A stretch of 48,595 nucleotides of DNA from a virus. The notes under the pieces were generated by a model, which did not search any database, had not been told where the DNA came from, and was given only the letters and a program-made list of their open reading frames with translations. The first letter of the stretch is position 1; the number at the start of each line of letters is the position of its first letter. This document shows positions 1,957-48,595 of the stretch, piece after piece. The translations under genes were made by a program, and so were the position numbers. The stretch spans positions 1 through 48,595 of IMG/VR virus record IMGVR_UViG_3300044799_000643. One strand, 5' to 3'.

Positions 1957-2026
1957 GTTCGTTAATATTTGGTTGTCACCAAAAGCTTTTATTCCTAAAT
2001 ATTCTTTTATGAATCAAGGTGTAATC

Positions 2027-17492: not shown

Positions 17493-17525
17493 TAATTATT
17501 CTTCCTTGTGTAGAAATATTCAGTT

Positions 17526-28535: not shown

Positions 28536-28583
28536 TATGGAACCCATATTCTCAATCTCACAGGGTTAATTTAAATGAAGATG

Positions 28584-28635
28584 AGAATGCTTAAAAGAGT
28601 TGTTGCTTATCCCGAAGAAAAGGGGAAGAGAGAGG
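28584..28635. repeat. 52-bp exact direct repeat, copy B (contains late promoter)
   Basis: Identical to 17526-17577. Here it follows the major capsid gene stop by 34 bases. The adjoining purine tract on the plus strand (28621-28668) is longer than at copy A. Confidence 0.9.
28589..28610 (-). promoter_or_regulatory. Late promoter element 2
   Basis: Same sequence as element 1, about 45-60 bases before the start of the 28236 gene. Confidence 0.65.
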
Positions 28636-28669: not shown

Positions 28670-29566
28670 CTATGGTGTCACGGGAGTGATTTCACATATG
28701 GATGTGGGGCGTTTAATGAATGGGACAGCGATTTCCCAGACTTTGCCTTTGGTGTTCATGTTTTCGTCTTGAATGTTGTAGACGCTGATGTCCTGTCCAA
28801 CGCCTAGGACGAAGTTCATGGGGCCTGGTTCGACGACGAGGACGCTGGTTGTTATTGCGGCTGCACCATACAGGTTGTCGCTGACGAAAATGTCTCTGAT
28901 GAAACCTGAGGTTTGCAGGACCTGTCTGGCTGTAGTGGCCGTGTTGGCTATGAGAAGTCTGAGGTCGGCTGCGTATGCGCTTCTGCAGATTAGGTCGTAG
29001 GGGCCGTTGTGTCCGTCTGCTTCAAGCATGCCTATTGCGTTTGAAACGTCAGTGATGATGTTGGCGGCGGTGCTCCATGCTCCTGCGCTGCCTTGAGTGT
29101 TGCGGTCAGTCGCTGAGCATAAGCCTTGTATTCCGAGGGCTCTCCATCCAGTGTATTCGCCTGAGAAACAAAGTTTATCTTCTTCCTCAGCAACTTGGAT
29201 GGCTGCGTTTTGGGGTTCACTCACGTCTATGGGCATTCCGCTTCTGCGTGAAGCAACGATGTCTCTGAACAGCAATTCATATTCTTTGTGTATCATTGGC
29301 ACGACGACGGATTTGGCTGTTTTCTTGGTTCTGTCGAAACTGACGTTGAGGCCGTCCATGTCAATGCGTGCTTGGCTCATGTCAGTCAGCGAGTAGGCTA
29401 TCCATTCTTTGATTCCGATGTCAGCAAGCTTTACGATTGGGAAGAGGTTGCGTGCTTGAAGTTTCTGTCTGACTGCCTCAATTACTTGCGATTCAATATA
29501 CTGCATGTCGGTGCTAAGCAGTTGTGCAGTGTCTGCTCCAACTCTACTCATACTAAAGTTCGTCAT
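28670..29566 (-). CDS. Major capsid protein, encapsulin-like HK97 fold
   Basis: The 298-residue product aligns by eye with encapsulins: an N-terminal arm and long helix (about 15-50), an E-loop region, AEEEDKLCFSGEYTG followed by GIQGL, GPYDLICRSAY, a VLVVEPGPMNFVLGVGQDIS segment and closing RPTSICEIT. Encapsulins and viral HK97 capsids share one fold. Its place after protease, scaffold and cement-like genes identifies it as the major capsid protein. A shorter homologue occurs at 17591. Confidence 0.85.
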   Translation of the reverse strand: MTNFSMSRVGADTAQLLSTDMQYIESQVIEAVRQKLQARNLFPIVKLADIGIKEWIAYSLTDMSQARIDMDGLNVSFDRTKKTAKSVVVPMIHKEYELLFRDIVASRRSGMPIDVSEPQNAAIQVAEEEDKLCFSGEYTGWRALGIQGLCSATDRNTQGSAGAWSTAANIITDVSNAIGMLEADGHNGPYDLICRSAYAADLRLLIANTATTARQVLQTSGFIRDIFVSDNLYGAAAITTSVLVVEPGPMNFVLGVGQDISVYNIQDENMNTKGKVWEIAVPFIKRPTSICEITPVTP

Positions 29567-29609: not shown

Positions 29610-30101
29610 CTAAGCGGTTGCTTTATCCAACGGGTTCAACTGAATGTTTGCAACCACATTTACGACGGCTGTTGAGTCGCCGACGGATTCTGCGCCGATG
29701 GCAACCACGTCACCTTCAGCTCCCAACGTGCCTGCCGTCAGTTTTCCAGTTAACCCGTCTGCAGCAGTGACAAGCGGAGTGCCGGGAACGATTGCGCCTG
29801 CACTGATTTTTCTGCGCACCATCACTTTACCATAGCCTCCAGTGATTACGCGGACAGTGTCGCCTTTAGCAGCCGGGTATTGTGTCAAAGTTTTGTCAGG
29901 CATCTCCATCAGAATTCCCAGTACGCCTACGGCTAAAGCTCCTGCTTCCTTAACATTTCCTGCTGCAACATCAAATATAACCCATGTGCCAGGCAACATC
30001 TTTGCCAAGGTACAGTTTGCTCCGGCTTCGAATTCTTCGATGATGAGGCCTCTGTCTTCCACAATTATTGAGTTTGTTGGTTGAACTATTGTTTCGGGCA
30101 T
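29610..30101 (-). CDS. Cement/decoration-like protein, paralogue 1 of 3
   Basis: The 163-residue member of a tandem triplet. All three share a start like MPxxxVxxxNSIIVxD, IIEEFExGAN, PGTWVIFD, GVLGILME, RVITGGxGxV and INPGTPLV. The pattern resembles capsid-stabilising DUF2190-type proteins that sit on the capsid surface. This copy lies closest to the major capsid gene and ends LNPLDKATA. Confidence 0.68.
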   Translation of the reverse strand: MPETIVQPTNSIIVEDRGLIIEEFEAGANCTLAKMLPGTWVIFDVAAGNVKEAGALAVGVLGILMEMPDKTLTQYPAAKGDTVRVITGGYGKVMVRRKISAGAIVPGTPLVTAADGLTGKLTAGTLGAEGDVVAIGAESVGDSTAVVNVVANIQLNPLDKATA

Positions 30102-30114
30102 TCTTTCATGGCTC

Positions 30115-30597
30115 CTAGTAGGATAGTACTCCGTGTTTTATGCGGACTACCGCATTGGTTTCTTTTGCTCCATCGTTAGCATGGATGGTTTCTCCGATGG
30201 CCACTATTTCGCCCTGCGCGCCTTTAGCGCCGGTTGCCTGAATTTTCGTGAGCCCACTTGTTGCGGCTACGAGTGGAGTGCCCGGATTAATGTTTCCTCC
30301 TGACGTGATGATTCGGGCCAAGACTAAACCGTCGCCTCCCGTGATGACTCTTGCCCTATCGCCTACCGCGTAAGCGTCGGTTATGGCTCCAGCCGCCTTT
30401 TCCATAAGGATTCCAAGTACGCCTGCAGCTTCATCGCTGCCTTCTTTAATGTCCATGTCGAGAGTGTCGGCAATTACCCATGTGCCAGGAAGCATTTTAG
30501 CTGGAGTAGCGCCTGCTCCAACCCTGAACTCTTCGATAACCAAGTGTTCGTCGGCTACGATAATCGAGTTGACTGATTCAACAATGTCTTGAGGCAT
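30115..30597 (-). CDS. Cement/decoration-like protein, paralogue 2 of 3
   Basis: The 160-residue middle copy of the triplet; begins MPQDIVESVNSIIVADEHLV and ends AVVRIKHGVLSY. Closer to copy 3 than copy 1 in the stretch AVGDRARVITGGDGLVLARI. Spacing of 13 bases to the next copy suggests one transcript. Confidence 0.67.
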   Translation of the reverse strand: MPQDIVESVNSIIVADEHLVIEEFRVGAGATPAKMLPGTWVIADTLDMDIKEGSDEAAGVLGILMEKAAGAITDAYAVGDRARVITGGDGLVLARIITSGGNINPGTPLVAATSGLTKIQATGAKGAQGEIVAIGETIHANDGAKETNAVVRIKHGVLSY

Positions 30598-30628
30598 ATT
30601 TCATCAATTCTCCTGTTCATCAATTCTC

Positions 30629-31111
30629 CTAAGTTCCTAAACTCATCGGCTGCTTATGGATCCTGACTACAGCGTTTGTTTCTTTGGCTGTATCACTGGC
30701 TGCGACGGTTGCTCCTATGGCGATGACTTCGCCTTGAGCTCCCTGCGCATCAACGGTCTGCACTCTTGCAGCGCCTAAAGTGCTGCACACTATTGGTGTG
30801 CCCGGGTTTATTGCTCCACCATTAATCACGATTCTGGACAGGACAAGTCCTCGTCCACCAGTTATGACTCTGCAGACGTCGCCTACAGCGTAAGCATCGC
30901 TTAAGAGGCCGTTTGGCTTTTCCATAAGAATTCCGACGACCCCGTGAACTTCATCTGAACCATGCTTCACGTTGCCTGCAACCGTGTCGAAAACTACCCA
31001 GATACCCGGGTACATGGTAAGTGCGTTGGCGCCTACTTCAAATTCTTCGATGATTAAGCCCTGATCTGCAACTATGACCGAGTTTGTGGGGGCTACTAAG
31101 TCTTGGGGCAT
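30629..31111 (-). CDS. Cement/decoration-like protein, paralogue 3 of 3
   Basis: The 160-residue first-transcribed copy of the triplet, beginning MPQDLVAPTNSVIVADQGLI. The start ATG overlaps the stop of the scaffold gene by one base. Three diverged copies in one operon suggest separate surface positions or heteromers. Confidence 0.67.
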   Translation of the reverse strand: MPQDLVAPTNSVIVADQGLIIEEFEVGANALTMYPGIWVVFDTVAGNVKHGSDEVHGVVGILMEKPNGLLSDAYAVGDVCRVITGGRGLVLSRIVINGGAINPGTPIVCSTLGAARVQTVDAQGAQGEVIAIGATVAASDTAKETNAVVRIHKQPMSLGT

Positions 31112-31542: not shown

Positions 31543-31593
31543 TTATTCATTCCTTCTGTTTGAGTATGTTGAGTATGAGGTATCTTTGGGAAT

Positions 31594-31615
31594 GCTTAAA
31601 AGGGTTATTGCTTAT
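31594..31615 (-). promoter_or_regulatory. Late promoter element 3
   Basis: Minus-strand ATAAGCAATAACCCTTTTAA, then GC; a diverged version of the 52-bp repeat's core, about 50 bases before ATG 31542 and overlapping the end of the protease gene by four bases. Confidence 0.62.
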
Positions 31616-32736
31616 TCTGGGGGTCTCCGACGTTTTCTTTGGAGTTGTTCACTGTTAAGGCGGTTAAGTTTGTCTATCAGAGTCTTTGTTGACTGGTCGG
31701 TTGGAGGTAAAGTGACTACAACGGTAGTCGTTGACTCTGAAGCTTTCACGGCGAAGGGACTTGGTTCTGGTTGAGGCTGCTGTTCAGGAATTGTGGGTGT
31801 CTCTTGACAGTCGGCTGAGTCAGCTCCATGAGTCTTGAACCATGCTTTCGCTTTCTCCATGTCATAGTTTGCTTTGTCGAAAATGAAGGTTTGCACCTGA
31901 GTGCCCACATCACATTTGGAGCCGTTCCAATGTCCTTTTGGACATCCTATCACGGCCTGAATTTCTTTTGTGATAGTTATCGTTCGGAAACTGTCCTTAT
32001 CGAAGTCTGAAGGATTCTTGTGGCCTGATCGGATTGAATTGGCTGTTTCATCCCACGGATCAGCACCCATCTGGGTGTCAGCTAATGCCTTGGCACGTTT
32101 GGCTGTTTCTTCCAAGTCATGAAGCGGCTTCGGTTCTTCCTGCAGGGGAAGCAGGTTTTCGGCCAGTTGAAAGTCAGCAACGTCACATCCGAGGCCGATG
32201 AAAGGCGCTCTCATCCTTCCCATTGGCACTCCGACTGCAACGTGATTGATGAGAATGTTTTCTTGAACAAGATCGTAGGGTTCACCCTGCCAATTTCCTT
32301 TCTTCTCCACAGCGTCAAACAAGAAGCCTACACTAACGTCGCGTCTGCGTCCTGTTTTCACATCATCAATGAAGTTGGCTGAAAGAAGTTTCTTGATGAG
32401 GTGGACATTCGCTTTGACGGCGGCAGACTTCTTACCATTAGGCATAACCGCGTCAGCGTCCAGCCGAACTTCAGTTAAGTCTCCCTTAATCTGCTTCTTC
32501 CTATCAGTGATAATGCTGATTAGAGGCTCAGGATGCTTTTCAGCCGTAACCCACGCTTTATTAAACGTGAAAAGCGCGTCTTGAAGCTCTTCTTTACTTC
32601 TGAGCGTATTTCCCTTCGCATACGAGAGAACACCTTCACGAGCGAGGATTGCGGGGATTATCAACTCTGTTTCCGTTTCTTTGATTGGGATGGCACTGTC
32701 AACTTCGCCGTTGATGATTCCGATTGTTTGTGGCAT
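31612..32736 (-). CDS. Prohead protease / DUF2213-like protein
   Basis: The 374-residue product begins [20 protein letters not shown]. It shows [42 protein letters not shown] and [12 protein letters not shown], matching the pattern of DUF2213-type phage proteins thought to be prohead proteases. The C-terminal half is linker-rich and may be a scaffold-like extension. It lies upstream of scaffold and capsid genes. Its own promoter element sits inside the preceding acetyltransferase gene. Confidence 0.72.
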
Positions 32737-33320
32737 TCTGCTTCATCTAGTGGATTGTAAGCGACTTTCTCCTTAAATGACTTATTGCTTAACAGGGCTA
32801 AAGCTGGTATGTCAGGACGTTTCATAAGGAGAGGAATCAGTTCTCGAAGTTCTTTCCAAGGCAGATCCCACCATTTCAACTTCATAAGCTGTTTCACTAT
32901 AAGTGCGTCGAACCTGAACTTAAGGTGCCGCGCCGGGGTGCCAGCCACAATCTCGTATGGAAGAACATTATGCGTGACTACCGCACCTGCAGCTATGACT
33001 GCTCCATCTCCAACTGTGACTCCTGAAAGAATCAGGGCATTTCTACCTATCCAAACATCATTGCCAATCGTGACGTCGCCCTTACTGTGGACTATGTGAA
33101 TGTTTCTGAAACGGATGAGAAGCTGATCAAACGGATAAGTGCTAACGTTGTGGTAGTTGTGTTCGCCTCCCAACAGGATGATAACTCCATCGCTGATGCT
33201 GCAGAATTTGCCTATTTTGAGTTTACCATTATCGATGAAGCTGGCTATTGTTGGAGCACCGAAAGTCCATTCTCCAATGTCAAACTGCTTGTATTCAGGC
33301 TGCCTATTTGTCAGCAACAT
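32661..33320 (-). CDS. Hexapeptide-repeat acetyltransferase (Vat/CatB-like)
   Basis: The 219-residue product carries left-handed beta-helix repeats and the xenobiotic acetyltransferase signature: [56 protein letters not shown] and a closing [13 protein letters not shown]. Such enzymes transfer acetyl from acetyl-CoA to antibiotics or sugars; in a virus, modification of surface glycans or small metabolites is plausible. ATG 33320 follows AAGGGTGA; GTG 33341 is an alternative. Its 3' end overlaps the protease gene by 76 bases, so it looks like a moron inserted into the head module. Confidence 0.8.
32771..32791 (-). promoter_or_regulatory. Late promoter element 5 (inside the acetyltransferase gene)
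   Basis: Minus-strand TTAAGCAATAAGTCATTTAA, then GG, about 37 bases before ATG 32736. It is coding sequence for the acetyltransferase C-terminus as well. Confidence 0.58.
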
Positions 33321-33353
33321 TAAAGGTATTTCACCCTTCAAAAAAATAAGGAG

Positions 33354-33485
33354 TCAGCGTATTAACCCTGCTTCCTTAAGTTTCTCATCACGTATATACA
33401 GGGCTGATTGCCGGTAGTCTCCTCCTTTAATCTGTTTCTTGCGATCCGTGATAATGCTGATGAGAGGTTCAGGATGTTGTTGCAT
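33354..33485 (-). pseudogene. Fragment related to the prohead protease gene
   Basis: The 43-residue frame [20 protein letters not shown] and following residues repeats an internal segment of the protease ([18 protein letters not shown]) almost exactly, then continues with unrelated GDYRQSALYIRDEKLKEAG. At DNA level 33421-33480 matches 32479-32534 with few differences. It is bordered by the right end of the IS element. Best read as a remnant left by duplication, recombination and insertion. Confidence 0.65.
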
Positions 33486-33518
33486 GACGCTCTCCCCGAC
33501 TGAAAGTTGGGAGTTTCT

Positions 33519-33929
33519 CTATTCACGGGTCTTCTGCTCCTCAATATACTTTTTAATCGTTTCCGTGCTCACATTTCCAGCAGTGCTAACAAAATAGCTG
33601 TGCGTCCAAAGACTTGGAAGCTTGCGTAGTTCGGGAAATTCAACTCGCAAATCATGACTGCTACGTCCCTTTATCGCTTTTACCAAGTGTGGCAAGCAAA
33701 GTTCTGGCCGGCTGCTAACGAAAAGATGCAGATGGTCGGGCATGACTTCCAACGCCAAAACCTCAACGCCCAGTTTCCAGGCTACCTCTGCAATAATCTG
33801 TTTCAATCTTTCCGCAACATCACCGACAAGCACTTTCTTACGCCGTTTCGGACACCACACAAGATGGTAGTTCAGCAAAAAAACATGGTGCTTACTGCGA
33901 TTATACTCCAATTTCCTCACCAAATTCAT
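33519..33929 (-). CDS. tnpA: IS200/IS605 Y1 transposase TnpA
   Basis: The 136-residue product has the HUH motif in PDHLHLFVS, the conserved N-terminal YHLVWCPKRRKKVL and the C-terminal nucleophile tyrosine in KKYIEEQ. It matches the usual length (130-150) of single-domain Y1 transposases that move single-stranded DNA. Start ATG 33929 or GTG 33935. It overlaps the small zinc-ribbon gene. All key residues are present, so it may be active. Confidence 0.9.
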   Translation of the reverse strand: MNLVRKLEYNRSKHHVFLLNYHLVWCPKRRKKVLVGDVAERLKQIIAEVAWKLGVEVLALEVMPDHLHLFVSSRPELCLPHLVKAIKGRSSHDLRVEFPELRKLPSLWTHSYFVSTAGNVSTETIKKYIEEQKTRE

Positions 33930-34038
33930 GTCCACATTTTTTGCATTTCCAAAATTGGCGTGGCGCGTTCAGCGGAAAGCTCTGCACCATAAGTTGCGCT
34001 TTACCGTCGCATTTTGGACATCTAGTAGCCTTGCACAA
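33901..34038 (-). CDS. Small zinc-ribbon protein (45 aa)
   Basis: TTG 34038 has GAGGAGGAT upstream. The product begins MCKATRCPKCDGKAQLMVQS and ends with KCKKCGHEFGEEIGV, giving CPKC and CKKC knuckles. It overlaps the upstream stop and the downstream tnpA start, so the three genes are read together. Could be a host of the insertion or an accessory of the element. Confidence 0.5.
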   Translation of the reverse strand: MCKATRCPKCDGKAQLMVQSFPLNAPRQFWKCKKCGHEFGEEIGV

Positions 34039-34237: not shown

Positions 34238-34340
34238 GTGTTTTTCACCAATAGCTATATACACAAACAACTATTTAAGTGTTGTGGAGTGCTATTCATC
34301 TACACGCCTAAACGCGGTAGCTTTCTCGCACCGAACCATA

Positions 34341-34373
34341 TGACGCTCTCCCCGACTGAAAGTTGGGAGTTTC
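34341..34373 (-). mobile_element. Solo IS200/IS605 end (scar) at the 3' end of cysH
   Basis: GACGCTCTCCCCGACTGAAA and following bases repeat the right end at 33486-33518. The last codons of cysH (VEKQKTHK, stop) match the last codons of tnpA (IEEQKTRE, stop). The cysH 3' terminus therefore appears to be derived from a second, mostly lost copy of the element. Confidence 0.75.
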
Positions 34374-35078
34374 CTATTTATGTGTTTTCTGCTTCTCAAC
34401 ATGGTTTGAACGGTGTTGAGGTAGAAGAAAACCGTCCAAGTAGGGAGACCCGAACTTTTCGAATTCCGTGTCAAAGAAAGTAACTAACCGTGCTTTATCG
34501 TAGCCAATAAGTGCAGCGTACTTATCGTAGATTTTCGGGTAGCCCAAATTCTGAGAAACAATATAGGCCCATACATCTGACCATGCCCAGTCGGCAATTG
34601 GGTAAACTTCGCCTTTTGGCCGCGCCTTGATTTTGGCTGTACGTCTACATCCTTCTTCCTTTCTTAAACCAACAAACTGATAATCCCAGCTTTCATCCTT
34701 TCTTGTTCGGTGAAGAGTATTCCAAAAAACCAAATACCATACTTTATAGTTACTACGAACATCTGGTTTCTCAAGCAAGGATGATGATTTAACCATAAGA
34801 TTGTTAGCTCCTAATTGTCTTGCATTAGCAATGACTTCATCCTCAATAGACTGAGGCATAAGGTAACTTCCATGGTTCCAATGAAACACATCAATTTTTG
34901 GCTCAACTTGCAACGCCAGATGTAGCATTACCGTACTATCTTTGCCTCCACTAAAAGCCACCATACACTTTCCTTTTTCAGTATAACGTTTGATTACTTT
35001 GAGGCTCTCTTGAACTTTTGCCCTATGCTCTTCAGTCTTTGCCCACATTAGGAAGCCTTTCCGCGTCATTTCTTCCAT
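34374..35078 (-). CDS. cysH: CysH-like PAPS-reductase-family PP-loop protein (type IV-B associated)
   Basis: The 234-residue product has the PP-loop SGGKDST at residues 43-49 and later GLRKEEGCRRTAKIKARPKG and YPIADWAWSDVWAYI, typical of phosphoadenosine phosphosulfate reductase-like ATP pyrophosphatases. It overlaps the csf3 stop by 13 bases; ATG 35069 is an alternative start. A CysH-like gene is the defining neighbour of type IV-B CRISPR loci, where its role is unknown. The C-terminal ten residues come from an IS200/IS605 end. Known PAPS-reductase biochemistry should not be assumed. Confidence 0.88.
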   Translation of the reverse strand: MEEMTRKGFLMWAKTEEHRAKVQESLKVIKRYTEKGKCMVAFSGGKDSTVMLHLALQVEPKIDVFHWNHGSYLMPQSIEDEVIANARQLGANNLMVKSSSLLEKPDVRSNYKVWYLVFWNTLHRTRKDESWDYQFVGLRKEEGCRRTAKIKARPKGEVYPIADWAWSDVWAYIVSQNLGYPKIYDKYAALIGYDKARLVTFFDTEFEKFGSPYLDGFLLPQHRSNHVEKQKTHK

Positions 35079-35752
35079 GTCACTTCAGCTCCTGGTGGCG
35101 CACAAGGCGAAACATTGCGTTTATCCCAATATGGAGGTTTGTAGGCAAGCATCATCTGTTCATCAGAGTCCACAATGAAAGATGGAAGAGGACGCATAGC
35201 TATGCCATCCTTGACTAAACTGTAGTCTGCATCTGTTTCTTCTATGCTGACGCTTCTGTAGATGCCGTAGCCATAAGCTACTTTCTTTCCAAGTCCAGGC
35301 AAATAGCTGAGAAGGCGCAGCGTTTCTTTGATGTTACCGCGTACATAGAAGGTTGCTGTTCGCGCTGGAATGTAAGGGAGTCGCATGGCGTAAGCTTTGA
35401 AGTGTCCTCTGGCTATGTCAATTGCTTTCTTTTTAGTCTTTATTGTGTTGCACTGTTGTTCTGCGAATCGTTTGTAGATGACGGCTGTGCTCGCTTCATT
35501 GCAATCTAACCATGCGACACTGGCATGAAAAATGTCTTTGGTTTGAGCCAAAGGCATAGTGGCTCCGTGATAAAGAAACCTTTGTGGAATCACTTCCTTG
35601 CTAGGCAATGTATAGTAATCTTGTCCTCGAAGTTCACGGTTAATAAGGTGGGCGAGTATTCCATCAAGTGCGAGCCAAGGGTGCCCTAACATTATTGGTG
35701 TCTGCATGTTAAATATTATGGCGAAATTGCTATAGTTTTTCGATTCGTTCAA
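35066..35752 (-). CDS. csf3: Type IV-B Csf3 (Cas5-like)
   Basis: The 228-residue product carries LALDGILAHL near the N-terminus, preceded by a strand FAIIFNMQTPIML, and a glycine-rich loop GLGKKVAYGYGIYRS in the C-terminal half, the features of RAMP/Cas5-type proteins. It lies between csf2 and cysH with short overlaps. TTG 35752 is preferred over ATG 35707 because the N-terminal strand of the fold begins before the ATG. Expected role: caps the 5' end of the guide in a type IV ribonucleoprotein. Confidence 0.85.
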   Translation of the reverse strand: MNESKNYSNFAIIFNMQTPIMLGHPWLALDGILAHLINRELRGQDYYTLPSKEVIPQRFLYHGATMPLAQTKDIFHASVAWLDCNEASTAVIYKRFAEQQCNTIKTKKKAIDIARGHFKAYAMRLPYIPARTATFYVRGNIKETLRLLSYLPGLGKKVAYGYGIYRSVSIEETDADYSLVKDGIAMRPLPSFIVDSDEQMMLAYKPPYWDKRNVSPCAPPGAEVTWKK

Positions 35753-36566
35753 GAGTTTGCCTCACGGATTCCTTATTCTCAATGAGATAGTCGATGTAGG
35801 CTTTGCTGGTCCACTGCATTTTTGGATAGTCGATTTTGATTTCGCCGTAGCCCACAGCGCTTTTGCCTCCGATGAAGGGTCTTTGTTTCCATAGTTCAAT
35901 CATTCTTGCGAAGCAACTTTTCTCTATTTGCAGTAAGTCCATGAGAACGAATTTATGGTAGAACCGTGTTCCAGGCGCAAAGCATTCTAAGTTTATTTTC
36001 ATCTGTATGGTTGGTTCTTCTTTCTTCTGATTCTGCTGAACCGTTTCAGGTGGCTCACGTTCAGCATGCCGAGTGGCGAATGTTTCTGTCAAATATTCGT
36101 GATAACTAAGCTTTGATTGCACTGGCAGAAAATCATTAAGCTCTTTGCAGATTGGTAGAGCCTTAGCGACTACAAGTTTTCCAGCGAAGGCTTGATTTCC
36201 CATCGAGCCACCAAGCAAGCTGAGTGGCGGTAGGTTAGCGCGGATTTCTCTTCGCAATTGCAGATTCAGTTTTCCGCTTTCTTGCAATTCTACCTCTTCA
36301 AGTGCCCCCCCAGAGAGTAGGTAGAAAAGTTTGGGCGTTTTGATTTCATAGCCAATCTGATTGAAAAAGTCTGTCAGCAACAAACGCCTAAGATAACCCC
36401 GAACGCTGTTTCCGTCAATGATTGGCACATCTGTTTTCTCGCCATCAATAATATAGTCGATTCTTCGCAAAGAAGATTCTACTCCTGTTTTTTCATCTCC
36501 TCCACTGAAGATTGTTGTTAAAGCAGTTAAAGTTCCTTCGATTGTCAAAGTCTCCGTATCATTCAC
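35730..36566 (-). CDS. csf2: Type IV-B Csf2 (Cas7-like backbone)
   Basis: The 278-residue product shows the Cas7/Csf2 pattern: TTIFSGGDEKTG, VPIIDGNSVRGYLRRLL, SLLGGSMGNQAFAGKL and FIGGKSAVGYGEIKID. The protein would form the helical backbone holding RNA in a type IV complex. Somewhat shorter than typical Csf2 (over 300 residues in my memory). It overlaps its neighbours on both sides by 8 and 23 bases. Confidence 0.88.
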   Translation of the reverse strand: MNDTETLTIEGTLTALTTIFSGGDEKTGVESSLRRIDYIIDGEKTDVPIIDGNSVRGYLRRLLLTDFFNQIGYEIKTPKLFYLLSGGALEEVELQESGKLNLQLRREIRANLPPLSLLGGSMGNQAFAGKLVVAKALPICKELNDFLPVQSKLSYHEYLTETFATRHAEREPPETVQQNQKKEEPTIQMKINLECFAPGTRFYHKFVLMDLLQIEKSCFARMIELWKQRPFIGGKSAVGYGEIKIDYPKMQWTSKAYIDYLIENKESVRQTLERIEKL

Positions 36567-36870
36567 CTCCTTCTAAGGCAAGAAGCATGAAGTAGATAGT
36601 TTCCTTCCTTACTGCTTTTAGTACCGCATCTCGGTCAGCTTCCAACTGTTTAATTGTTGCAGTTTCGATTTGGATGCTCTGTATACCGAGACTATGACAG
36701 AGTTTTTCCATGAAGGTACTGATAGTTTGTTGATGAGATGCAGCTTTGATTTTATGTGCGTAAATATCATATTTGCTTGTCTTTCTAGCTATTTTCTTCC
36801 AATTCGCATTATCATGTATCAGTCGCAATAATCTTTTCAAGTTGGTTTCAGTCTGCTCTTTTAAACTCAA
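36559..36870 (-). CDS. cas11: Type IV-B small subunit (Cas11-like)
   Basis: The 103-residue all-helical protein sits between csf1 and csf2, the standard place of the type IV-B small subunit. TTG 36870 has GGAGG six bases upstream. Helical content and length (about 100-130 in the family) fit, but no diagnostic motif exists, so identification rests on synteny. Confidence 0.72.
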   Translation of the reverse strand: MSLKEQTETNLKRLLRLIHDNANWKKIARKTSKYDIYAHKIKAASHQQTISTFMEKLCHSLGIQSIQIETATIKQLEADRDAVLKAVRKETIYFMLLALEGGE

Positions 36871-37462
36871 CGATAACCCTCCATAATGGATTGTGTTGTA
36901 GTTTTCGTAGGCGAAAGCTTTCCTGCCATGTCAAACCATATTTTCGATGTGCACTTGGTTGAGGCATCCCAGAGAGCATTACAGTTTTTGGGATTCTCCG
37001 AGCATATAGGTTCTTTGCGAAGGCATGAAGGTCAGCGTAAGTTTTATCGTCAAACATGATTTTGTCTTCATCAACAATGAGAATAAACCGTTTCGTCCCT
37101 AAAACTGGATTCTGTACTGCTCTTATCCACCCATGCTTACGCTTAGTCTTTGTCAAATACAAAAGGAAGGGGGGCGAAGGAAGATTAAGCAGAAAGTCCG
37201 TCACATTCTCGATAGCTTCAAATTTTCTGTTGTGAATAATCCACGAGTTTCTACGGTATTTGGGGTCTGTGAACATTTCTGCACAACGAGAGCAAGCCTT
37301 GTTTCCAGCTTGTAAGAACTGATACGCAGTGAACGTTTCGGGGAAAGTTATTTTTTCCAATTTCTCAGTCAACAAAACTCCGCAGAATACGCAGTTTTGC
37401 GCGCGCGCGCATGAAACTATTTTAGGTTGCTGCACCGTAGCCAAATAGCAGGGTTCAGTCAT
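36848..37462 (-). CDS. csf1: Type IV-B Csf1 (Cas8-like, zinc-finger)
   Basis: The 204-residue product has two cysteine pairs, C24/C27 (NCVFCG) and C57/C60 (ACSRCA), as in Csf1 proteins, followed by a mixed alpha/beta domain with NPVLGTKRFILIVDEDKIMF. Position as the first gene of the five-gene cas operon and the zinc finger support the call. The usual length is about 200-230 residues. Starts at ATG 37462, four bases inside the upstream gene. Confidence 0.85.
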   Translation of the reverse strand: MTEPCYLATVQQPKIVSCARAQNCVFCGVLLTEKLEKITFPETFTAYQFLQAGNKACSRCAEMFTDPKYRRNSWIIHNRKFEAIENVTDFLLNLPSPPFLLYLTKTKRKHGWIRAVQNPVLGTKRFILIVDEDKIMFDDKTYADLHAFAKNLYARRIPKTVMLSGMPQPSAHRKYGLTWQESFRLRKLQHNPLWRVIVEFKRAD

Positions 37463-37755
37463 TCAGGCAGACTTCCTATCCGCTCAATATCATAGAAATG
37501 AATGCAATTTATATGCTTGGGAAGGTCAGGCATAAACTGGCCTCTGTGGTAGCTTTGGCCTATGTGGTCTATGCACCAAAGGCAACTGTTCGGGCCGACA
37601 TCTCCTGAAATCACGAAGTCTGTTACGCCTAGGGCTGTCCCATAAATTTTGACTGCGTTATTGAAGGTGCCAAGCTGAACATCTTCACTGAGCATTCCCA
37701 ACCTAGCAAGAATACCGTCTTCAGTCAACCAGTAATTGCCTGATTCAGCACTCAC
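37459..37755 (-). CDS. Head-morphogenesis-like (SPP1 gp7/Mu gpF C-terminal) fragment
   Basis: The 98-residue product from GTG 37755 (GGAG upstream) has NSCLWCIDHIGQSYHRGQFM followed by LPKHINCIHFYD. This is the CxxC...P.LPxHxNCxH pattern at the C-terminus of phage head-morphogenesis proteins. Full-length family members exceed 200 residues, so this is a stand-alone C-terminal domain or a truncation. The place near the portal gene fits. A TTG at 37800 would extend it by 15 residues into the small Cys-rich gene. Overlaps csf1 by four bases. Confidence 0.6.
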   Translation of the reverse strand: MSAESGNYWLTEDGILARLGMLSEDVQLGTFNNAVKIYGTALGVTDFVISGDVGPNSCLWCIDHIGQSYHRGQFMPDLPKHINCIHFYDIERIGSLPE

Positions 37756-37880
37756 GGTTTTATCTCCTTTGCGTATCCATATTTCAGTAGCCAAAGACAA
37801 GGTTTTTCTTTATTTTTACAATGTTCCGCGACAAGTTCAGGACTCTTCTGAATTAAACATGATACCCTTGAGGTTTTCAC
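37752..37880 (-). CDS. Small cysteine-rich protein (42 aa or longer)
   Basis: From GTG 37880 the frame reads MKTSRVSCLIQKSPELVAEH and continues with CKNKEKPCLWLLKYGYAKE, ending as GTGA overlap with the next start. The open frame continues upstream with a further cysteine (GNYCPYFSRNP) up to about 37930 but has no standard start codon there. Likely metal-binding; start unresolved. Confidence 0.45.
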   Translation of the reverse strand: MKTSRVSCLIQKSPELVAEHCKNKEKPCLWLLKYGYAKEIKP

Positions 37881-37923: not shown

Positions 37924-38523
37924 TCAGCTGGAGGCTGGGACAGATGCTTTCACCTCTTCTAACGCTTCTTTGCAAGCCCTTGCGAAAGTTTGACTGCAAG
38001 CCAAAGGAATCTTAGCACGTTCCCAACTTCGGGTTTTGTGGTTGTTATAGTTCCTCCAGATAGAAGGCTTATTGCTCATTGGAAACAGAAAGTCTGGACA
38101 GTTGCCCCAGAAAGCCCTTCTCATTCCTTTGCTGAGTTTTCCAACAAATTGCGGTCTTGTGTGAATATGCTTTGCCAGGTTTGGGTGATTTTCCATTATC
38201 CAGAATCTCGGTTTAGCTCTCTGGATGAATGTAAGAAAACAATCTACGAGTTTCAATCCTTCCTGGAGATTTGGAGCTTTTTTCCAGTTCTTCGCAAAAC
38301 AGGTTATCATAGGGGTAAATTCTCTGCAAGGAGGACTTCCCCAAATCACATCGTAACCCTGAAAGGCTTTACCATCAAGCGAGAGCATATTGGCCAAGAT
38401 GAATCGGTAGGGATAGCCTACGTTCACAATGTCAATGCCCGTAACGTCAAAACCTTCCCTGTGAAAGCCTTCTGAAGCCCCTCCGAGCCCGCAGAAGCAG
38501 TCTAACATTTTAAGTTTTCGCAT
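37924..38523 (-). CDS. dcm: DNA (cytosine-5) methyltransferase, short form
   Basis: The 199-residue product has motif I LDCFCGLGGASEGFHREGFD, motif IV GSPPCREF with the catalytic cysteine, a motif VI-like WIMENHP and RRAFWGN as a motif VIII candidate. Length is well below the 300-400 usual for full C5 methyltransferases, so the target-recognition region is reduced. Probably modifies viral DNA to evade host restriction. ATG 38523 lies 15 bases after the portal stop. Confidence 0.82.
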   Translation of the reverse strand: MRKLKMLDCFCGLGGASEGFHREGFDVTGIDIVNVGYPYRFILANMLSLDGKAFQGYDVIWGSPPCREFTPMITCFAKNWKKAPNLQEGLKLVDCFLTFIQRAKPRFWIMENHPNLAKHIHTRPQFVGKLSKGMRRAFWGNCPDFLFPMSNKPSIWRNYNNHKTRSWERAKIPLACSQTFARACKEALEEVKASVPASS

Positions 38524-38538
38524 TCAGATTTCTCTTCT

Positions 38539-40374
38539 TCACAGTTTCGTTGAACCTGCTTTATACACTTTTTCAGCGTCAGAGAGAACAGTGTCCAAGT
38601 CTTTGAGAAACCGCTTGTGCTGACTGTCCAATTTGCGCTGCATTTCAGGCGGAATAATCACAACACCTGGAAACCCGCTTCTATGTTTAATCCAGAGCAG
38701 CGCGTGTTCCTGTTCGAGGCGAGTGTATTCGACAATGAGGTTTTTTCCACGTTGCATCGCCTCTTCCTTGCCGAGTTTGCCATTCATCACTGCCACGCCA
38801 ATGTCCTGGATGAGGTGGGGAAGAGTGCGACTGATACTCTTGTCCACTGGAACTGCGTCTAGAGGTGACTGGTCAGCGCTAGAACCTTTCTTAGATTCTT
38901 TCGCTGGATTGCCATCCCCCAGAGCAGGTGAAGGTGACTGCAGGTTTTCTTTAGATGCAACTGTTGAAGTTGAAGCCTCAATTTTTAGGGGTGGAGCTAC
39001 GACAGGTTCACTTGGCTTAGAAAGACTTAAACTTGCGCCCATCTCTTTCAGGCTGCTTGTAAGGCCTAAACACACTTCACCTGCATTGTTAGGTAATGGT
39101 TTAAGTTTGAAGCGGCCCTTGCGTACTTCATCAACTGTTTTGCAGAGCAACTCTTTTTCTGCAGTTTGAGCATTAATATAGTCAAGTTCAGCCTTCTCCT
39201 TTTGAGTTGGTTCATAGGAAGGTTTCCAGACAATCTTATAGTTAAGATGCTGGTCTTCCGTTGCTTTTCCAAGGTAACTCAGGATTTTGTCGATAAGTAG
39301 ACGCAGGACTTGCTCGAAGGCTGTCTGTTCATCACTAATCACTTTGAAATAGCTGCGTTCATTAATTTCTGAACCTGTGATGGCGCCTGCCTGAGCACCC
39401 TTCAAAACAGGCTCTGGAATTCCTGAGCCCAGCGAGAGGGTTTCTAGGGCTATCTGATAGTAGTTCAGTGGGTTAAGTGAGCTGGAAGCGAAGCCTTTGA
39501 ACTCAAGTGCTTGCTGCTCATTATGAACGAAATACTTCATACAGTTCAAATTGTCGAATTGGCCTGAAGCAATGAAAGCGTCGATAGCCGCTTGATCTGC
39601 TTCGGGTCCCTTCAAGGTTACATCGGGAAACCCGCTTCCATATCGTATCATTGCCATATAAATTCCCCAGCGCATATACCGGTAGCCTGTAATGTCATCG
39701 TAGAGGCACTGCAGCACGGACCAGCCCTTATAACGGTGGTGCGGCAGAAGAGTCGAACAAAGAATAGCTCTGCTATAGTGGACTTGGATATTGGTGTCTG
39801 TGAAGCCGGCTGACTTTCTCATGTAATAAAACTGGGGGTAGCCGTCTCTGTCGTCATCTGGGTCTGCGACGTCTTCTATTCTGTTTATTTCCAGTTTCGA
39901 GTAGGGTTCAATGTAGCGGATTTGAGCGTCAGGCTGCTCCATAGGGTTCTTGAGGTCTGGCAACTTATCATCATACCCTAAAAGTAGAAGACTGTAACCA
40001 AAGAGCCTGGAGAGGCTGAGGAGCTTAATCAATTTGGTTTTCGCTTGAAGCCTGTCCAATTCTGCTTGAACCTCTTCATTAAGCGAACCATCATCGTCTC
40101 CTTCCGTAGGAACTATGGTGAACCAGTTGTCAAGGGTGTCTTTTGCTACTCCGAATACAATGCGGAAAGCTGCAGGTTCCCTCTGCACAGCGAACAGAAG
40201 CTCCCTGTCATCTATTTTGCTGCCGAAAAGGCCTCTACTTGTTGGTGCTCGCATTGTGCCATAGGGAATGCTGTCATAGGTAGTGCTTTCGCCTGTGTCT
40301 GCAGCAAACCGTTTCCTAAGCTCACTATTACTAAGTTTAGATAGGTCGCTGCCTGACTTGAAACCTGTACTCAC
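38539..40374 (-). CDS. Portal protein
   Basis: The 611-residue product begins at GTG 40374 (MSTGFKSGSDLSKLSNSELR), coupled to the upstream stop. Residues 70-390 follow the portal pattern: LDRLQAKTKLIKLLSLSRLF, a GYSLLLLGYDD strand, YRYMRWGIYMAMIRYGSGFP, then LETLSLGSGIPEPVLKGAQA and GSEINERSYFKVISDEQ. This matches DUF1073-type portals. It follows terminase genes and precedes head genes. The C-terminal 170 residues are linker-rich and charged. Confidence 0.82.
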   Translation of the reverse strand: MSTGFKSGSDLSKLSNSELRKRFAADTGESTTYDSIPYGTMRAPTSRGLFGSKIDDRELLFAVQREPAAFRIVFGVAKDTLDNWFTIVPTEGDDDGSLNEEVQAELDRLQAKTKLIKLLSLSRLFGYSLLLLGYDDKLPDLKNPMEQPDAQIRYIEPYSKLEINRIEDVADPDDDRDGYPQFYYMRKSAGFTDTNIQVHYSRAILCSTLLPHHRYKGWSVLQCLYDDITGYRYMRWGIYMAMIRYGSGFPDVTLKGPEADQAAIDAFIASGQFDNLNCMKYFVHNEQQALEFKGFASSSLNPLNYYQIALETLSLGSGIPEPVLKGAQAGAITGSEINERSYFKVISDEQTAFEQVLRLLIDKILSYLGKATEDQHLNYKIVWKPSYEPTQKEKAELDYINAQTAEKELLCKTVDEVRKGRFKLKPLPNNAGEVCLGLTSSLKEMGASLSLSKPSEPVVAPPLKIEASTSTVASKENLQSPSPALGDGNPAKESKKGSSADQSPLDAVPVDKSISRTLPHLIQDIGVAVMNGKLGKEEAMQRGKNLIVEYTRLEQEHALLWIKHRSGFPGVVIIPPEMQRKLDSQHKRFLKDLDTVLSDAEKVYKAGSTKL

Positions 40375-40962: not shown

Positions 40963-40980
40963 TCAACATTACATTAGCTG

Positions 40981-41000
40981 AGTTAAAAAACTTGTTGTTT
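40981..41000 (-). promoter_or_regulatory. Late promoter element 6
   Basis: Minus-strand AAACAACAAGTTTTTTAACT, a variant of the late element, just before the zinc-protein/portal chain at ATG 40962. Confidence 0.52.
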
Positions 41001-41034
41001 AATTGACCTTGCGAGATTGATTCTGTGAAAATGT

Positions 41035-41818: not shown

Positions 41819-42304
41819 CTAACCGAATCTGAATGCTCGCAATGGAGCGGCACTCCCCAATTTCAAGGAATACCTAAGAGCGTCACACGCGTGGTCTCGC
41901 TCTTTAACATCAACCCTGTATTCTAGTAGTTCGCTGATGAGGTTTACGCAGCGACTTGAAATGTAAATGCGTGGACGCCCATCGCCTGCCTTCTGAAACC
42001 GTGCGCCCAACTCACGCAAGCCTTCCTCCCGCTTATGACCATATGGAGAGGCGTTGAGTCCTCCAGCCTTCATTTTAGAAATGGTTTCAGGTTCTGACGG
42101 GTCGCAGAGAAACGGGCCACTACCATACTGCGCCACAAGGTTCTGCGCTTCCAAGACTATGCGTTCCGCGCCTGCCTGAGCCTGGTAAAACTCGTCGAGA
42201 ACCCAAACTCTACCATCACCATCATACCCGACGACAACAATGGCTGAAGGATTGCTCCAGCCAAAAATCCACGCCATATCTAACTTGGCGTATTTCAATT
42301 TCAA
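41819..42304 (-). CDS. terL: Terminase large subunit, nuclease domain (separate ORF)
   Basis: The 161-residue product begins at TTG 42304 and has the RNase-H-like terminase nuclease pattern: FGWSNPSAIVVVGYDGDGRV, WVLDEFYQ, FLCDPSEPETI and ERDHACDALRYSL. Three of the four usual acidic positions are seen; the first aspartate (normally D in GxDxGW) is isoleucine here (WIFGW). The ATPase half is a separate frame starting 95 bases upstream. Fission, an intron or a damaged gene are all possible. Confidence 0.82.
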   Translation of the reverse strand: MKLKYAKLDMAWIFGWSNPSAIVVVGYDGDGRVWVLDEFYQAQAGAERIVLEAQNLVAQYGSGPFLCDPSEPETISKMKAGGLNASPYGHKREEGLRELGARFQKAGDGRPRIYISSRCVNLISELLEYRVDVKERDHACDALRYSLKLGSAAPLRAFRFG

Positions 42305-42387
42305 ACGGCATCCCGTTCTGTTCTACTAACAGCCTCATCTCTCTTTTCACAGTCCAAAATACGACTAAGGTAAATGAATGACATCAT
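42301..42387 (-). CDS. Short ORF in the terL gap (28 aa)
   Basis: ATG 42387 opens MMSFIYLSRILDCEKRDEAV, ending with TGA that overlaps the TTG of the nuclease-domain ORF. It begins 12 bases after the ATPase-domain stop. It could serve as a coupling peptide that carries ribosomes to the second half, or the whole gap could be an intron. No homology recognised. Confidence 0.3.
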   Translation of the reverse strand: MMSFIYLSRILDCEKRDEAVSRTERDAV

Positions 42388-42398
42388 GAAATCTAATC

Positions 42399-43163
42399 TC
42401 AATCTATCCTTTTAAGTATTGTGAAAGTATGAACGGTACTGTCGAATGGAAAGCTTCCCTGCGCTATTTCTGCAAACCTACCGTATAAGAAGCGTTCAGC
42501 GTATCCTCCCGAATGCGTACGCTTCATCTCCTCCAAAAACTGCCTTGGAAGATTTGGGTTTTCGAAGATGCTCCAACGATAGATTTTGCCGAGCGGATTC
42601 TTAGTCAAGGGATTCTCGAAAAAATTGAATAAGCAACTTCCTGGAGTGTCGGGAGTTGTTGTCACCCAAGCTCCGCGTGGATAAGGAATGTTCTGGTTAC
42701 TTCCTCTGAGACGCCTGCGGATAACGTTCCAGCAAACGTCGAAGTGCCTCATCAATCTCGGTTCGTCAAGGTGTGCAAAGTCAATATTCACACCTTCACT
42801 CTTCTCTGGATCGTCTAAGCTGCCAAACCAAAGCCTACTGCCATTCTTGAATTCTAGGCACATGTCGGCACGGTTAAATTTGCTGACAAACTCGTTAGAT
42901 TCAACTGGACAACCGAGCAGAAGGTCACGTTCAAGCGTGGGCAACAAGATTCTTTTAACCATCGGGTACGTGGGCTCAAAAACGTAGCCAACGATACCTG
43001 TGTTTTCCCTGCACCAACGAATATCTTCAGCTAATCCACAGAGCGTTTTGCCTGCACCTGTACCCGCAAACACTCCACGATAAAACACGCTGTAAGCATC
43101 ATCATGAAACGCTAGTTGCTTCTGGTGGGGTTGATACTGAAACGTCTTTCGCTCTTCCGTCAT
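42399..43163 (-). CDS. terL: Terminase large subunit, ATPase domain (separate ORF)
   Basis: The 254-residue product has Walker A GVFAGTGAGKT, an adenine-binding-type QKQLAF motif upstream, Walker B VNIDFAHLDEPRL with catalytic glutamate, and a coupling segment WVTTTPD. It ends at ...FDSTVHTFTILKRID, where full-length large terminases go on into the nuclease domain. ATG 43163 overlaps the small terminase frame by 62 bases. Confidence 0.88.
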   Translation of the reverse strand: MTEERKTFQYQPHQKQLAFHDDAYSVFYRGVFAGTGAGKTLCGLAEDIRWCRENTGIVGYVFEPTYPMVKRILLPTLERDLLLGCPVESNEFVSKFNRADMCLEFKNGSRLWFGSLDDPEKSEGVNIDFAHLDEPRLMRHFDVCWNVIRRRLRGSNQNIPYPRGAWVTTTPDTPGSCLFNFFENPLTKNPLGKIYRWSIFENPNLPRQFLEEMKRTHSGGYAERFLYGRFAEIAQGSFPFDSTVHTFTILKRID

Positions 43164-44841: not shown

Positions 44842-45612
44842 ATGAAGATTTCTGATGTTGTTGTCGGTGAAAGATTCAGGAAGGACGTGGGCGAACTGAG
44901 TTCTCTCGTAGCCAGCATCAAAGAAGTGGGGTTACTGCATCCAATCGTTGTTTCGGAGAAAGACGAATTAATCGCTGGTTATCGGCGTCTGCGAGCTTTT
45001 CAGGTTATGGGTTTACTGGAGATTCCCGCTACCATTGTCAACTTGAAGGATTTGCGGAAGGGCCAGATTCACGAGAATTTAATACGGAAAAACTTTACTG
45101 CAAGCGAAATGGTTGCTGTCCAGCGAGCATTGGAAACAGAAATCAAAGCAGAGCATCCTGTTGGAAGACCTGAAAAAGGTGGAAAATTTCCACAATTAAC
45201 TGGCGAAAAAACCCGTGATGTCATCGGCTCTTTTGTTGGTGTTAGTGGAAGAACGCTTGAGAAGGCTGAGGATATTGTTGAAGCTGCTGAGCAGGAACCC
45301 GAAAAATATGGACCTCTCCTGGTGAAGGTGGATAACGAGAAAATAAGCGTAGATGCAGCATATACCCAAATTCGCAGGGGAGAAAAACACAAAAATATGC
45401 GTAAACATCCTAAATGTGTATTCGAGGAAATTCCAAGTCGTTGTCTCGAAGAATATGCTAGACTGAAAAAAACGTCCAAAGAAGCATCTGGAAGTATAGA
45501 GAATGAAGACGTCTTAGAAGCTGAGAAACTGAAGACGACTGAAGACCCGAAAGACAGCCTAGCAAACGAAGAACTCACGCAAGTGCAAGAATCCACAGTA
45601 GAGGAAGAATAG
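44842..45612 (+). CDS. ParB-like DNA-binding protein
   Basis: The 256-residue product has VVGERFRKDVGELSSLVASI, GLLHPIVVSEKDELIAGYRR with the arginine box, a QIHENLIRKNFTASE segment and an HTH (KTRDVIGSFVGVSGRTLEKA). The first 100 residues are nearly identical to the ParB domain of the fusion at 46457, so they duplicated recently. The C-terminal 60 residues are acidic and may dimerise or bind partners. No ParA is seen. Roles: binding parS-like palindromes for partition or regulation. Confidence 0.85.
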   Translation: MKISDVVVGERFRKDVGELSSLVASIKEVGLLHPIVVSEKDELIAGYRRLRAFQVMGLLEIPATIVNLKDLRKGQIHENLIRKNFTASEMVAVQRALETEIKAEHPVGRPEKGGKFPQLTGEKTRDVIGSFVGVSGRTLEKAEDIVEAAEQEPEKYGPLLVKVDNEKISVDAAYTQIRRGEKHKNMRKHPKCVFEEIPSRCLEEYARLKKTSKEASGSIENEDVLEAEKLKTTEDPKDSLANEELTQVQESTVEEE

Positions 45613-46456: not shown

Positions 46457-47713
46457 CTAACATTTCCTAAAAATATAGAGGTCTCGCGAAATATTCAGGG
46501 TCTTCTTTTCTTCTAAGGCTCTTGTCACATCATGATTTGCATACTGTTGCGTTGTCAACGGAACTTGAATTCTGTTTATCGCACGGAATCCAGCAGCAAC
46601 GAATATGTTGAAGTATTCGCAGGTCAGAAGGGAACTTTCCTCATCTACATAATCGCTGATAAGTAGAGCAACAATCCCGCTAGGTTTTACAGTTTCGAAG
46701 CAGTCTTTGGCAAGTTTGCCCATGAACTGAAGCCACAAATTCCGGTCAGTAATATAGTCCTTAGCATATCTTTCGTGGTTTGCAAGTTTCTTGAAGTATG
46801 GAGGATCTAAGAAAATCAGGTCACAGTTCTTAGCCGAAGTTGGAAAACCGTTTCGAATGTCGTTTTCAACTATCTCTTTTCGTATGGGCGATATGTCAAG
46901 TGACAATGATTTTCGCTCCATAACTCGACAGACATCTTCAGTTGTTCCACTCCCCGCCATAGGGTCAACAACAAAATCACCCTTCTCCGAGTAGTAATGC
47001 AACACGTTTTGAACAATCTGAGCCGGCACTCTACCCGGGAAATCTGGAACACCGAAATGTTCATTGCATTTGCTGAAATTCCATACAGTGAAAACTTTAG
47101 GCGTAAATTCAAGTTCGGTTTTAGTTTCTTTAGCATGCTTGATTTCGTTGTAGGCCTTATCGATGCTTTTTCTTCCATTATCTACCTGCGCGAGGATAAC
47201 CCCAAACCGTTCAGGCTCCGCCTTAACAGCCTTACCAATAGCCCTCAGCTTATCCAAAGACCCGTGACTCTTCCCAACAAAAGAAGCAACAACATCACGC
47301 GTTTTTGAAGGTGGTGCCAAATTGGCACCACCTTGAGGCATTACTCGACCTTCCTTAATTTGCGTTGCTTCTTGGCGTTCTTTTGCCGCTTCTGAAACCT
47401 CAGGCCTATACGCCTCGTCAATAGCGATAATCTCGCTGCAAATGAAGTCTTCGCGAACCATATTCTCGTGAACCTCACCTTTCCGCAAATCAGCCAAGTT
47501 AACAGTTGTCGCTGGAATTTCAGAGAGACCCATCAACTGAAACGCTCGCAATCGCCGCTTTCCCGCGATTAACTCATTCTTCTCAGAAACTACGATAGGA
47601 TGCAGCAAACCAACATCCTTGATGCTGCGAACAAGCCCAGACAAATCACCGATGTTCTTGCGGAACCTGTCTCCTACCTTAACGTCTGCAACTTTAACGG
47701 TTCTACTACTCAA
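46457..47713 (-). CDS. ParB-DNA methyltransferase fusion
   Basis: The 418-residue product starts at TTG 47713, with AAGGTGA five bases upstream; an upstream frame to 47758 runs through an operator and is rejected. N-terminal ParB domain (about 1-200) with ELIAGKRRLRAF, then an amino-methyltransferase with SAM motif DPMAGSGTT (about 250-258) and catalytic DPPY (about 303-306), giving N6-adenine or N4-cytosine methylation. ParB-methyltransferase fusions are known in phages and mobile elements. It may methylate viral DNA or couple partition to methylation. Confidence 0.85.
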   Translation of the reverse strand: MSSRTVKVADVKVGDRFRKNIGDLSGLVRSIKDVGLLHPIVVSEKNELIAGKRRLRAFQLMGLSEIPATTVNLADLRKGEVHENMVREDFICSEIIAIDEAYRPEVSEAAKERQEATQIKEGRVMPQGGANLAPPSKTRDVVASFVGKSHGSLDKLRAIGKAVKAEPERFGVILAQVDNGRKSIDKAYNEIKHAKETKTELEFTPKVFTVWNFSKCNEHFGVPDFPGRVPAQIVQNVLHYYSEKGDFVVDPMAGSGTTEDVCRVMERKSLSLDISPIRKEIVENDIRNGFPTSAKNCDLIFLDPPYFKKLANHERYAKDYITDRNLWLQFMGKLAKDCFETVKPSGIVALLISDYVDEESSLLTCEYFNIFVAAGFRAINRIQVPLTTQQYANHDVTRALEEKKTLNISRDLYIFRKC

Positions 47714-47737
47714 TGAATCACCTTTCCATTTTATTGA

Positions 47738-47777
47738 TGTTCGTCCGACGAACAGCACGCAGCGGAATTATTAAACC
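47738..47777 (-). promoter_or_regulatory. Promoter with palindrome copy 5
   Basis: TGTTCGTCCGACGAACA at 47738-47754 (perfect) lies 20-37 bases downstream of a TATA-like GTTTAATAA (minus strand, 47777-47769). It overlaps the predicted transcription start of the ParB-methyltransferase gene. This geometry suits autorepression. Confidence 0.72.
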
Positions 47778-48397: not shown

Positions 48398-48595
48398 GTT
48401 TTTTGCCCCCAGATTTTTCAGTTTCATTGAACAGTTGCTGAGGAGTCAGTTTCTCCAGTTCTTCAAGGCGCAGTCTTGCTGCTTCACTCATAAATTCTGC
48501 GACGCTATGATACCGCTCGCACATTTTAATGAAGTCTTCAACGTCACGGACCAACGTTGTTTTTATGCTTACGCTTCTGAATCTTTCTTTGTTCA
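48387..48595 (-). CDS. Ribbon-helix-helix protein, C-terminal part (gene crosses the circular junction)
   Basis: This is the right-hand portion of the 75-residue RHH gene that starts at 173. Within the repeat it reads SVSIKTTLVRDVEDFIK and past the repeat it continues EELEKLTPQQLFNE to the TGA at 48389-48387. It leads a leftward operon of four small genes. Confidence 0.8.
   Translation of the reverse strand, partial: NKERFRSVSIKTTLVRDVEDFIKMCERYHSVAEFMSEAARLRLEELEKLTPQQLFNETEKSGGKKRES
48470..48595. repeat. Terminal direct repeat, right copy (126 bp)
   Basis: Identical to 29-154; see the left copy. Confidence 0.93.

Follow-up and report, generated by a model that had tools for sequence, protein, structure and literature searches.

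How does a tailed virus come to carry a CRISPR-Cas operon between the genes for its head, and what might such an operon do when no CRISPR array accompanies it? The question is raised by an IMG/VR virus record of 48,595 nt (IMGVR_UViG_3300044799_000643; hereafter the window, in which all coordinates are given), where positions 34374–37462 of the minus strand hold a type IV-B CRISPR/CysH block. In the published view type IV-B systems reside mostly on plasmids. We read the block, with a probability of about 0.4 for the reading as a whole, as an array-less IV-B module that was acquired as cargo, lies in a late transcription unit and would encode a non-guided, RNA-binding ribonucleoprotein (RNP) acting together with CysH. 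Fuxivirus is a published case of an archaeal tailed virus with IV-B (PMC10848311), and Skermania phage SPI1 and other bacterial viruses carry IV-B too. New are the genome in the window, the insertion history of the block, its context in a late unit and the wide spread of IV-B/CysH among viruses (55 IMG/VR records).

A type IV-B module with a PP-loop enzyme

Five intact open reading frames (ORFs) occupy the block, at the place and in the order given by a first-pass annotation of the sequence:

36848–37462, minus strand: csf1, type IV large subunit with a zinc-finger-like CxxC...CxxC motif; 204 aa; PADLOC Csf1_0_IV 6.3e-29; NCBIfam cas8u_csf1 2.3e-6
36559–36870, minus strand: cas11, small subunit; 103 aa; PADLOC Cas11_0_IV 8.8e-25; 70% identical in the viral contig L064
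35730–36566, minus strand: csf2, Cas7 backbone subunit; 278 aa; PADLOC Csf2_0_IV 6.5e-65; Csf2 of PDB 7jhy 6e-10; 71% identical in L064
35066–35752, minus strand: csf3 (Cas5); 228 aa; PADLOC Csf3_0_IV 3e-57; NCBIfam cas5_csf3 4.9e-18
34374–35078, minus strand: cysH-like PP-loop enzyme gene; 234 aa; Pfam PAPS_reduct 1.2e-17

The overlaps csf1/cas11, cas11/csf2, csf2/csf3 and csf3/cysH measure 23, 8, 23 and 13 nt. The profile searches proposed in the annotation recognized the csf1, csf2 and csf3 core as well as cas11 and the associated cysH, and the zinc-finger motif of Csf1 and the SGGKDST PP-loop of CysH that it had pointed out are both present. Because the NCBIfam matches of Csf1, Csf2 and Csf3 (E = 2e-6, 5e-10 and 5e-18) all fall under the curated equivalog cut-offs, the window IV-B is placed as a divergent member and not as an equivalog of the NCBIfam reference systems. 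The solved structures nearest to the window Csf2 by sequence are 11fs (deposited as Cas7c) and 7jhy (a mycobacterial IV-B complex). A PDB fold search with the AlphaFold2 model of Csf1 (only moderately confident, with a mean predicted local distance difference test score (pLDDT) of 76) gave no match.

No CRISPR array or mini-array was found in the window, an Rfam search gave no match, and the ORF list and profile searches revealed no adaptation gene, Cas6, effector nuclease or helicase in the operon. Its gene content makes the block a complete type IV-B CRISPR/CysH module without an array, and its description as such in a tailed virus agrees with the PADLOC type IV matches, the empty array searches and the presence of genes for TerL, portal, protease and major capsid protein (MCP).

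The same subunits form the Csf complex of Mycobacterium sp. JS623 (PDB 7jhy; PMC7937560), whose Csf2 is homologous to that of the window (6e-10), although that system lies on an actinobacterial megaplasmid and is distant in sequence. The IV-B locus of a Thermococcus nautili plasmid (NZ_OX281346) has the order csf1-cas11-csf2-csf3-cysH and a Csf2 that is 47% identical and belongs to the same Csf2 clade; unlike the window it is plasmid-borne, with virion genes not noted in the stretch read. The annotation had correctly pointed to an IV-B system in Fuxiviridae, tailed viruses of Bathyarchaeia (PMC10848311; International Committee on Taxonomy of Viruses 2025, PMC12451623). Fuxivirus (PP467601, compared by its published description) carries a cysH-csf3-csf2-cas11-csf1 operon (PMC10848311), but in a 32-kb genome where IV-B constitutes genes 1–5, apart from the TerL/portal/MCP genes 27–34, and is accompanied by a Cas4-like gene and a CRISPR mini-array. 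At 48.6 kb, with IV-B among the head genes and without a mini-array, the window record lacks the Fuxiviridae trait of a 32-kb genome with an IV-B mini-array. Skermania phage SPI1 (KR011061) is likewise tailed and has csf1, csf2, csf3 and cysH, together with a small gene in the cas11 position that hidden Markov models did not recognize. It differs in being a bacterial phage, in its Csf2 (30% identical) and in the location of IV-B outside the head module, downstream of the tail genes on the same strand.

The window CysH groups with CysH of other IV-B loci and has the SGGxDS PP-motif and the fold of the PP-loop ATP pyrophosphatase superfamily, its AlphaFold2 model (pLDDT 86.6) matching LarE, FAD synthase and phosphoadenosine phosphosulfate (PAPS) reductase at E about 1e-6. 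Across 13–15 IV-B CysH proteins the SxGKDS PP-motif, the R and E of GLRxxExxxR, the next R and one D are invariant. No cysteine is invariant across these loci, and the window CysH has none near its C-terminus, where sulfonucleotide (PAPS) reductases carry the catalytic cysteine. The intact PP-motif suggests that ATP chemistry has been retained, and conservation and predicted fold together support an adenylating enzyme over a sulfonucleotide reductase. The former role was proposed earlier (PMC8175902); a recent review terms CysH an inactivated reductase (PMC11656645).

Insertion into the head-gene region and transcription context

The position of the block is best seen against a 27-kb sister contig (L002), which is colinear with the window over TerL-portal-head-acetyltransferase-protease-MCP (identities: TerL 50–66%, portal 64%, head 66% over 92 residues, acetyltransferase 67%, protease 70%, MCP 76%). 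IV-B is missing from the corresponding site, and no IV-B gene was found anywhere in the 27 kb of L002. The features concerned are:

38539–40374, minus strand: portal gene; Pfam Phage_portal_3 2.6e-33
37459–37800, minus strand: truncated minor-head-like gene; 113 aa, 66% identical to residues 33–124 of the 207-aa L002 protein
34340–34373, minus strand: 34-nt hairpin-forming repeat, like an IS200-type right end, directly after the cysH stop; identical to 33484–33517
33519–33935, minus strand: IS200-type transposase gene tnpA; Pfam Y1_Tnp 1.6e-40; HLH motif intact; tblastn matches to IS200/IS605 TnpA
33484–33517, minus strand: the other, identical copy of the 34-nt repeat, right behind the tnpA stop
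33422–33481, minus strand: recombination scar at the right junction, 85% identical to the protease-gene part 32481–32540
31612–32736, minus strand: protease gene, downstream of the block
28670–29566: MCP gene, HK97-type

In L002 the head gene (207 aa) runs into the acetyltransferase gene. In the window, similarity to the L002 head protein stops at the csf1 start codon, where the TGA of the minor-head gene overlaps the csf1 ATG (ATGA), and approximately 4.1 kb (IV-B, an insertion sequence (IS) of the IS200 type and the scar) stands in place of the 3′ part of the head gene. The operon was annotated as separating the head-like gene from the protease and capsid genes; this holds, with the IS200-type element and the acetyltransferase gene also lying between cysH and the protease and MCP genes. 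The comparison of related viruses refined the claim: with the L002 site empty, the block is read as having arrived horizontally and cut the minor-head gene short on insertion, and the insertion looks recent. The csf genes have a G + C content of 0.37–0.44, vs 0.45–0.51 for the surrounding genes of the virus backbone.

The transposase is a Y1 HUH TnpA, as in IS200/IS605 elements, and the right-end-like repeat occurs twice. That IS200-type ends mobilized the csf1-to-cysH block as passenger DNA, which bears on its arrival and not on its function, is suggested by the identical hairpin repeats right after the cysH and tnpA stops; we hold it to be improbable, as no left-end copy was found near csf1 and the nearest IV-B locus, that of L064, has no such repeat. 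The 34-nt repeats were also considered as a CRISPR mini-array and ruled out, since the copies lie 856 nt apart, with a transposase gene between them, and form hairpins.

L064 (IMGVR_UViG_3300031746_004826, 37.5 kb) resembles the window in its portal, MCP and protease, and its Csf2 pairs with that of the window in the tree with 100% support. It differs in having IV-B between TerL and portal. Identity in csf1/cas11/csf2/csf3/cysH amounts to 54/70/71/64/52%, against just 33–42% for virion proteins (portal 41%, MCP 41%, protease 33%, decoration-like 35–42%). That the IV-B modules are more alike than the virion proteins implies horizontal exchange of IV-B between viruses. Three related viruses thus present three states: IV-B inside the head genes (window), upstream of the portal gene (L064) and absent from the site (L002).

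An archaeal BRE/TATA-like motif, TAAGCAAYAASYCTTTTAAGC, stands 33–72 nt upstream of nine gene starts on the minus strand (44370, 41463, 40962, 32736, 31542, 28547, 27236, 20507 and 17492), with copies before late genes at 17524–17558, 28582–28616, 31587–31621 and 32764–32798. A position weight matrix (PWM) yielded eleven sites above 12.5 bits, four of which had served to build it, vs 1.7 expected from shuffles. Sites for the motif also occur in L002, before its counterparts of 41463, 32736, 31542 and 17492; the stretch of L002 between portal and acetyltransferase has none. Two sites frame the block:

40978–41001, minus strand: promoter-like motif that opens the unit g40962-portal-methyltransferase-head-csf1...; PWM 11.2–11.5; the L002 unit is led by a site at 4110
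32768–32791, minus strand: promoter-like motif before the protease gene, the next unit downstream; among the four PWM-building sites; L002 also has a site before its protease gene

Because no IV-B gene is preceded by the motif, IV-B is placed within a predicted morphogenesis unit starting at about 41.0–41.5 kb. Late co-transcription with the virion genes, as first annotated, is likely, given the ATGA overlap with the head gene and a motif that is conserved in L002 before the neighbouring units and not before csf1.

The window genome is probably near complete, as it carries a 126-nt terminal direct repeat (29–154 = 48470–48595); beside it, positions 1–28 are an inverted copy of 99–126, probably an artefact of assembly. 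TerL, portal, protease and HK97-type MCP place the virus in the Caudoviricetes. The first-pass annotation spoke of a tailed archaeal virus: the tail stands, and an archaeal host is likely, given the TATA-like promoters, the haloarchaeal portal and MCP homologues and the Thermococcus plasmid relative. Named portal and MCP homologues come from haloarchaeal tailed viruses, but also from Listeria and Brevundimonas phages, and tblastn matches of TnpA span both domains and are uninformative on the host.

Several other features of this genome were observed. The acetyltransferase gene of the head region (32661–33341, minus strand), common to the window and L002, is of the hexapeptide-repeat type (Vat/CatB-like, phrog_16087), and a partial C5 cytosine methylase gene (37924–38523, minus strand) between portal and head gene is not in L002. 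TerL is split in the window (41819–43163, minus strand; ORFs 42399–43163 and 41819–42304), with its two matching parts separated by approximately 100 additional nt (an intron, a split gene or an assembly error), and is a single 428-aa ORF in L002. Three tandem paralogues (160, 160 and 163 aa; 29610–31111, minus strand) upstream of MCP, with one copy in L002, are probably an expansion of a decoration protein. Coding repeats with a 42-nt period (20800–21900, minus strand) lie inside a 548-aa ORF (20522–22168) for a tail- or fibre-like repeat protein. Three ParB-like genes (1973–2860, plus strand; 44842–45612, plus strand; 46457–47758, minus strand) include one fused to a methyltransferase-like region; the haloarchaeal plasmids L004 and L006 also have ParB and PAPS-reductase-type genes near IV-B.

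Distribution and placement among viruses

Searches with profiles of archaeal-type Csf2 and Csf3 recovered IV-B in 55 distinct IMG/VR records other than the window, 47 of them with CysH; the count is not dereplicated, and several CysH-less records end inside or near the locus. A single-sequence scan of viral contigs with the window Csf2 gave no match, and a portal-profile scan of viral contigs gave nothing beyond L002. As TerL (phrog_2) is present in 23 of the 50 records searched, many are genuine tailed viruses. Most IV-B records fall in one virus-dominated Csf2 clade (38 rows, support 90), which joins the window with 36 further viral contigs and a single Thermococcus plasmid. Gene orders vary among the viral loci, with csf2-cysH-csf3 in several, and cellular plasmids carry the same module. 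Rather than being rare, type IV-B/CysH seems to be a frequent accessory module among viruses.

In 27 of 31 genomes IV-B shares the strand of TerL/portal (15/19 after dereplication; p = 0.02 vs 50%, a naive null as tailed viruses have strand bias). A general attraction of IV-B to packaging genes was rejected despite this excess, since over the 31 viral genomes the distance to TerL or portal was no shorter than expected by chance (combined p = 0.17). In the L021/L023 virus IV-B does lie in the head module, between a portal gene (PF06381, 3e-82) and a Phage_Mu_F gene (2e-14), and its Csf2 is very distant from that of the window (23–25% identical). Head-module insertion of IV-B is recurrent, not the rule. 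The operon of L021/L023 has two extra genes between csf3 and cysH (L021 11511–12457), one of them SpoU-type RNA methylase-like (3e-8). No mini-array adjoins the IV-B genes at any fetched viral locus; the sole intergenic candidate, in L021/L023, is 5.7 kb away from IV-B.

Possible roles of the module

The mechanism that we tentatively propose, and hold a little less firmly than the overall reading, is that Csf2, Cas11, Csf3 and Csf1 would assemble late in infection on short RNAs with no dedicated guide. The RNP might soak up small RNAs such as host crRNAs (CRISPR RNAs), as in the published guide-sponge hypothesis (PMC8175902), and CysH, a PP-loop ATP pyrophosphatase that lacks the cysteine of the reductases, could adenylate or otherwise modify either the complex or the RNA bound in it. 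The virus would gain a means of counter-defence or of competing with other elements. One IV-B RNP is known to assemble on non-CRISPR RNAs, and 7jhy is the only case for which a filament on RNA is known (PMC7937560). Several points weigh against the reading of a late, non-guided acquired module: L002 is a 27-kb fragment, so that only the insertion site is shown empty and IV-B could sit in its unseen part; a TATA-like CATATAAAT approximately 40 nt upstream of csf1 could be the operon's own promoter; the identities with L064 presuppose comparable evolutionary rates of Cas and virion genes; and a sponge alone leaves the strong conservation of CysH unexplained.

Alternatively, the complex may borrow host-made crRNAs or an array in trans to bind competing viruses or plasmids, with CysH aiding silencing. 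This is a possible but less probable account. The RNP subunits are complete, type IV-A is reported to silence without a nuclease (PMC11519345), and Fuxivirus IV-B has a mini-array (PMC10848311). The window itself offers no Cas6, array, nuclease or helicase, no mini-array adjoins any other fetched viral locus, and the solved complex, in the account of PMC7937560 given by a review (PMC8175902), held heterogeneous RNAs despite co-expressed crRNAs.

An action on the virion side is distinctly unlikely; in this account the late-made RNP and CysH would associate with viral RNA or DNA while heads are being assembled, or travel inside the particle to the next infection. The late promoter context and the location between head genes in both the window and the distantly related L021/L023 speak for it, but most other viral genomes have IV-B outside the head genes, at distances from TerL or portal no shorter than chance, and cellular plasmids carry the same module. 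We give similarly little credence to the broader proposal that IV-B/CysH is a widespread viral system without guides from an array of its own, made late, tied to head assembly in the window and L021/L023, whose RNP and CysH would act on packaged or virion nucleic acid and not in adaptive immunity. Least probable is a passive or decaying cargo kept only briefly after insertion, which would fit the recent-looking insertion beside an IS element and a recombination scar, but not five intact ORFs with catalytic and zinc motifs in a unit conserved across the other viral records.

The absence of mini-arrays beside the fetched viral IV-B loci argues that the virus-borne system works without guides of its own. 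The window amounts to a clean evolutionary experiment, with sisters that have and lack the module, a morphogenesis unit into which it was precisely inserted, and its exchange from one virus to another. The promoter-like element provides a handle for mapping late promoters in this virus group, and, since Skermania SPI1 is a cultured phage that carries the module, the function of the module can be tested directly.

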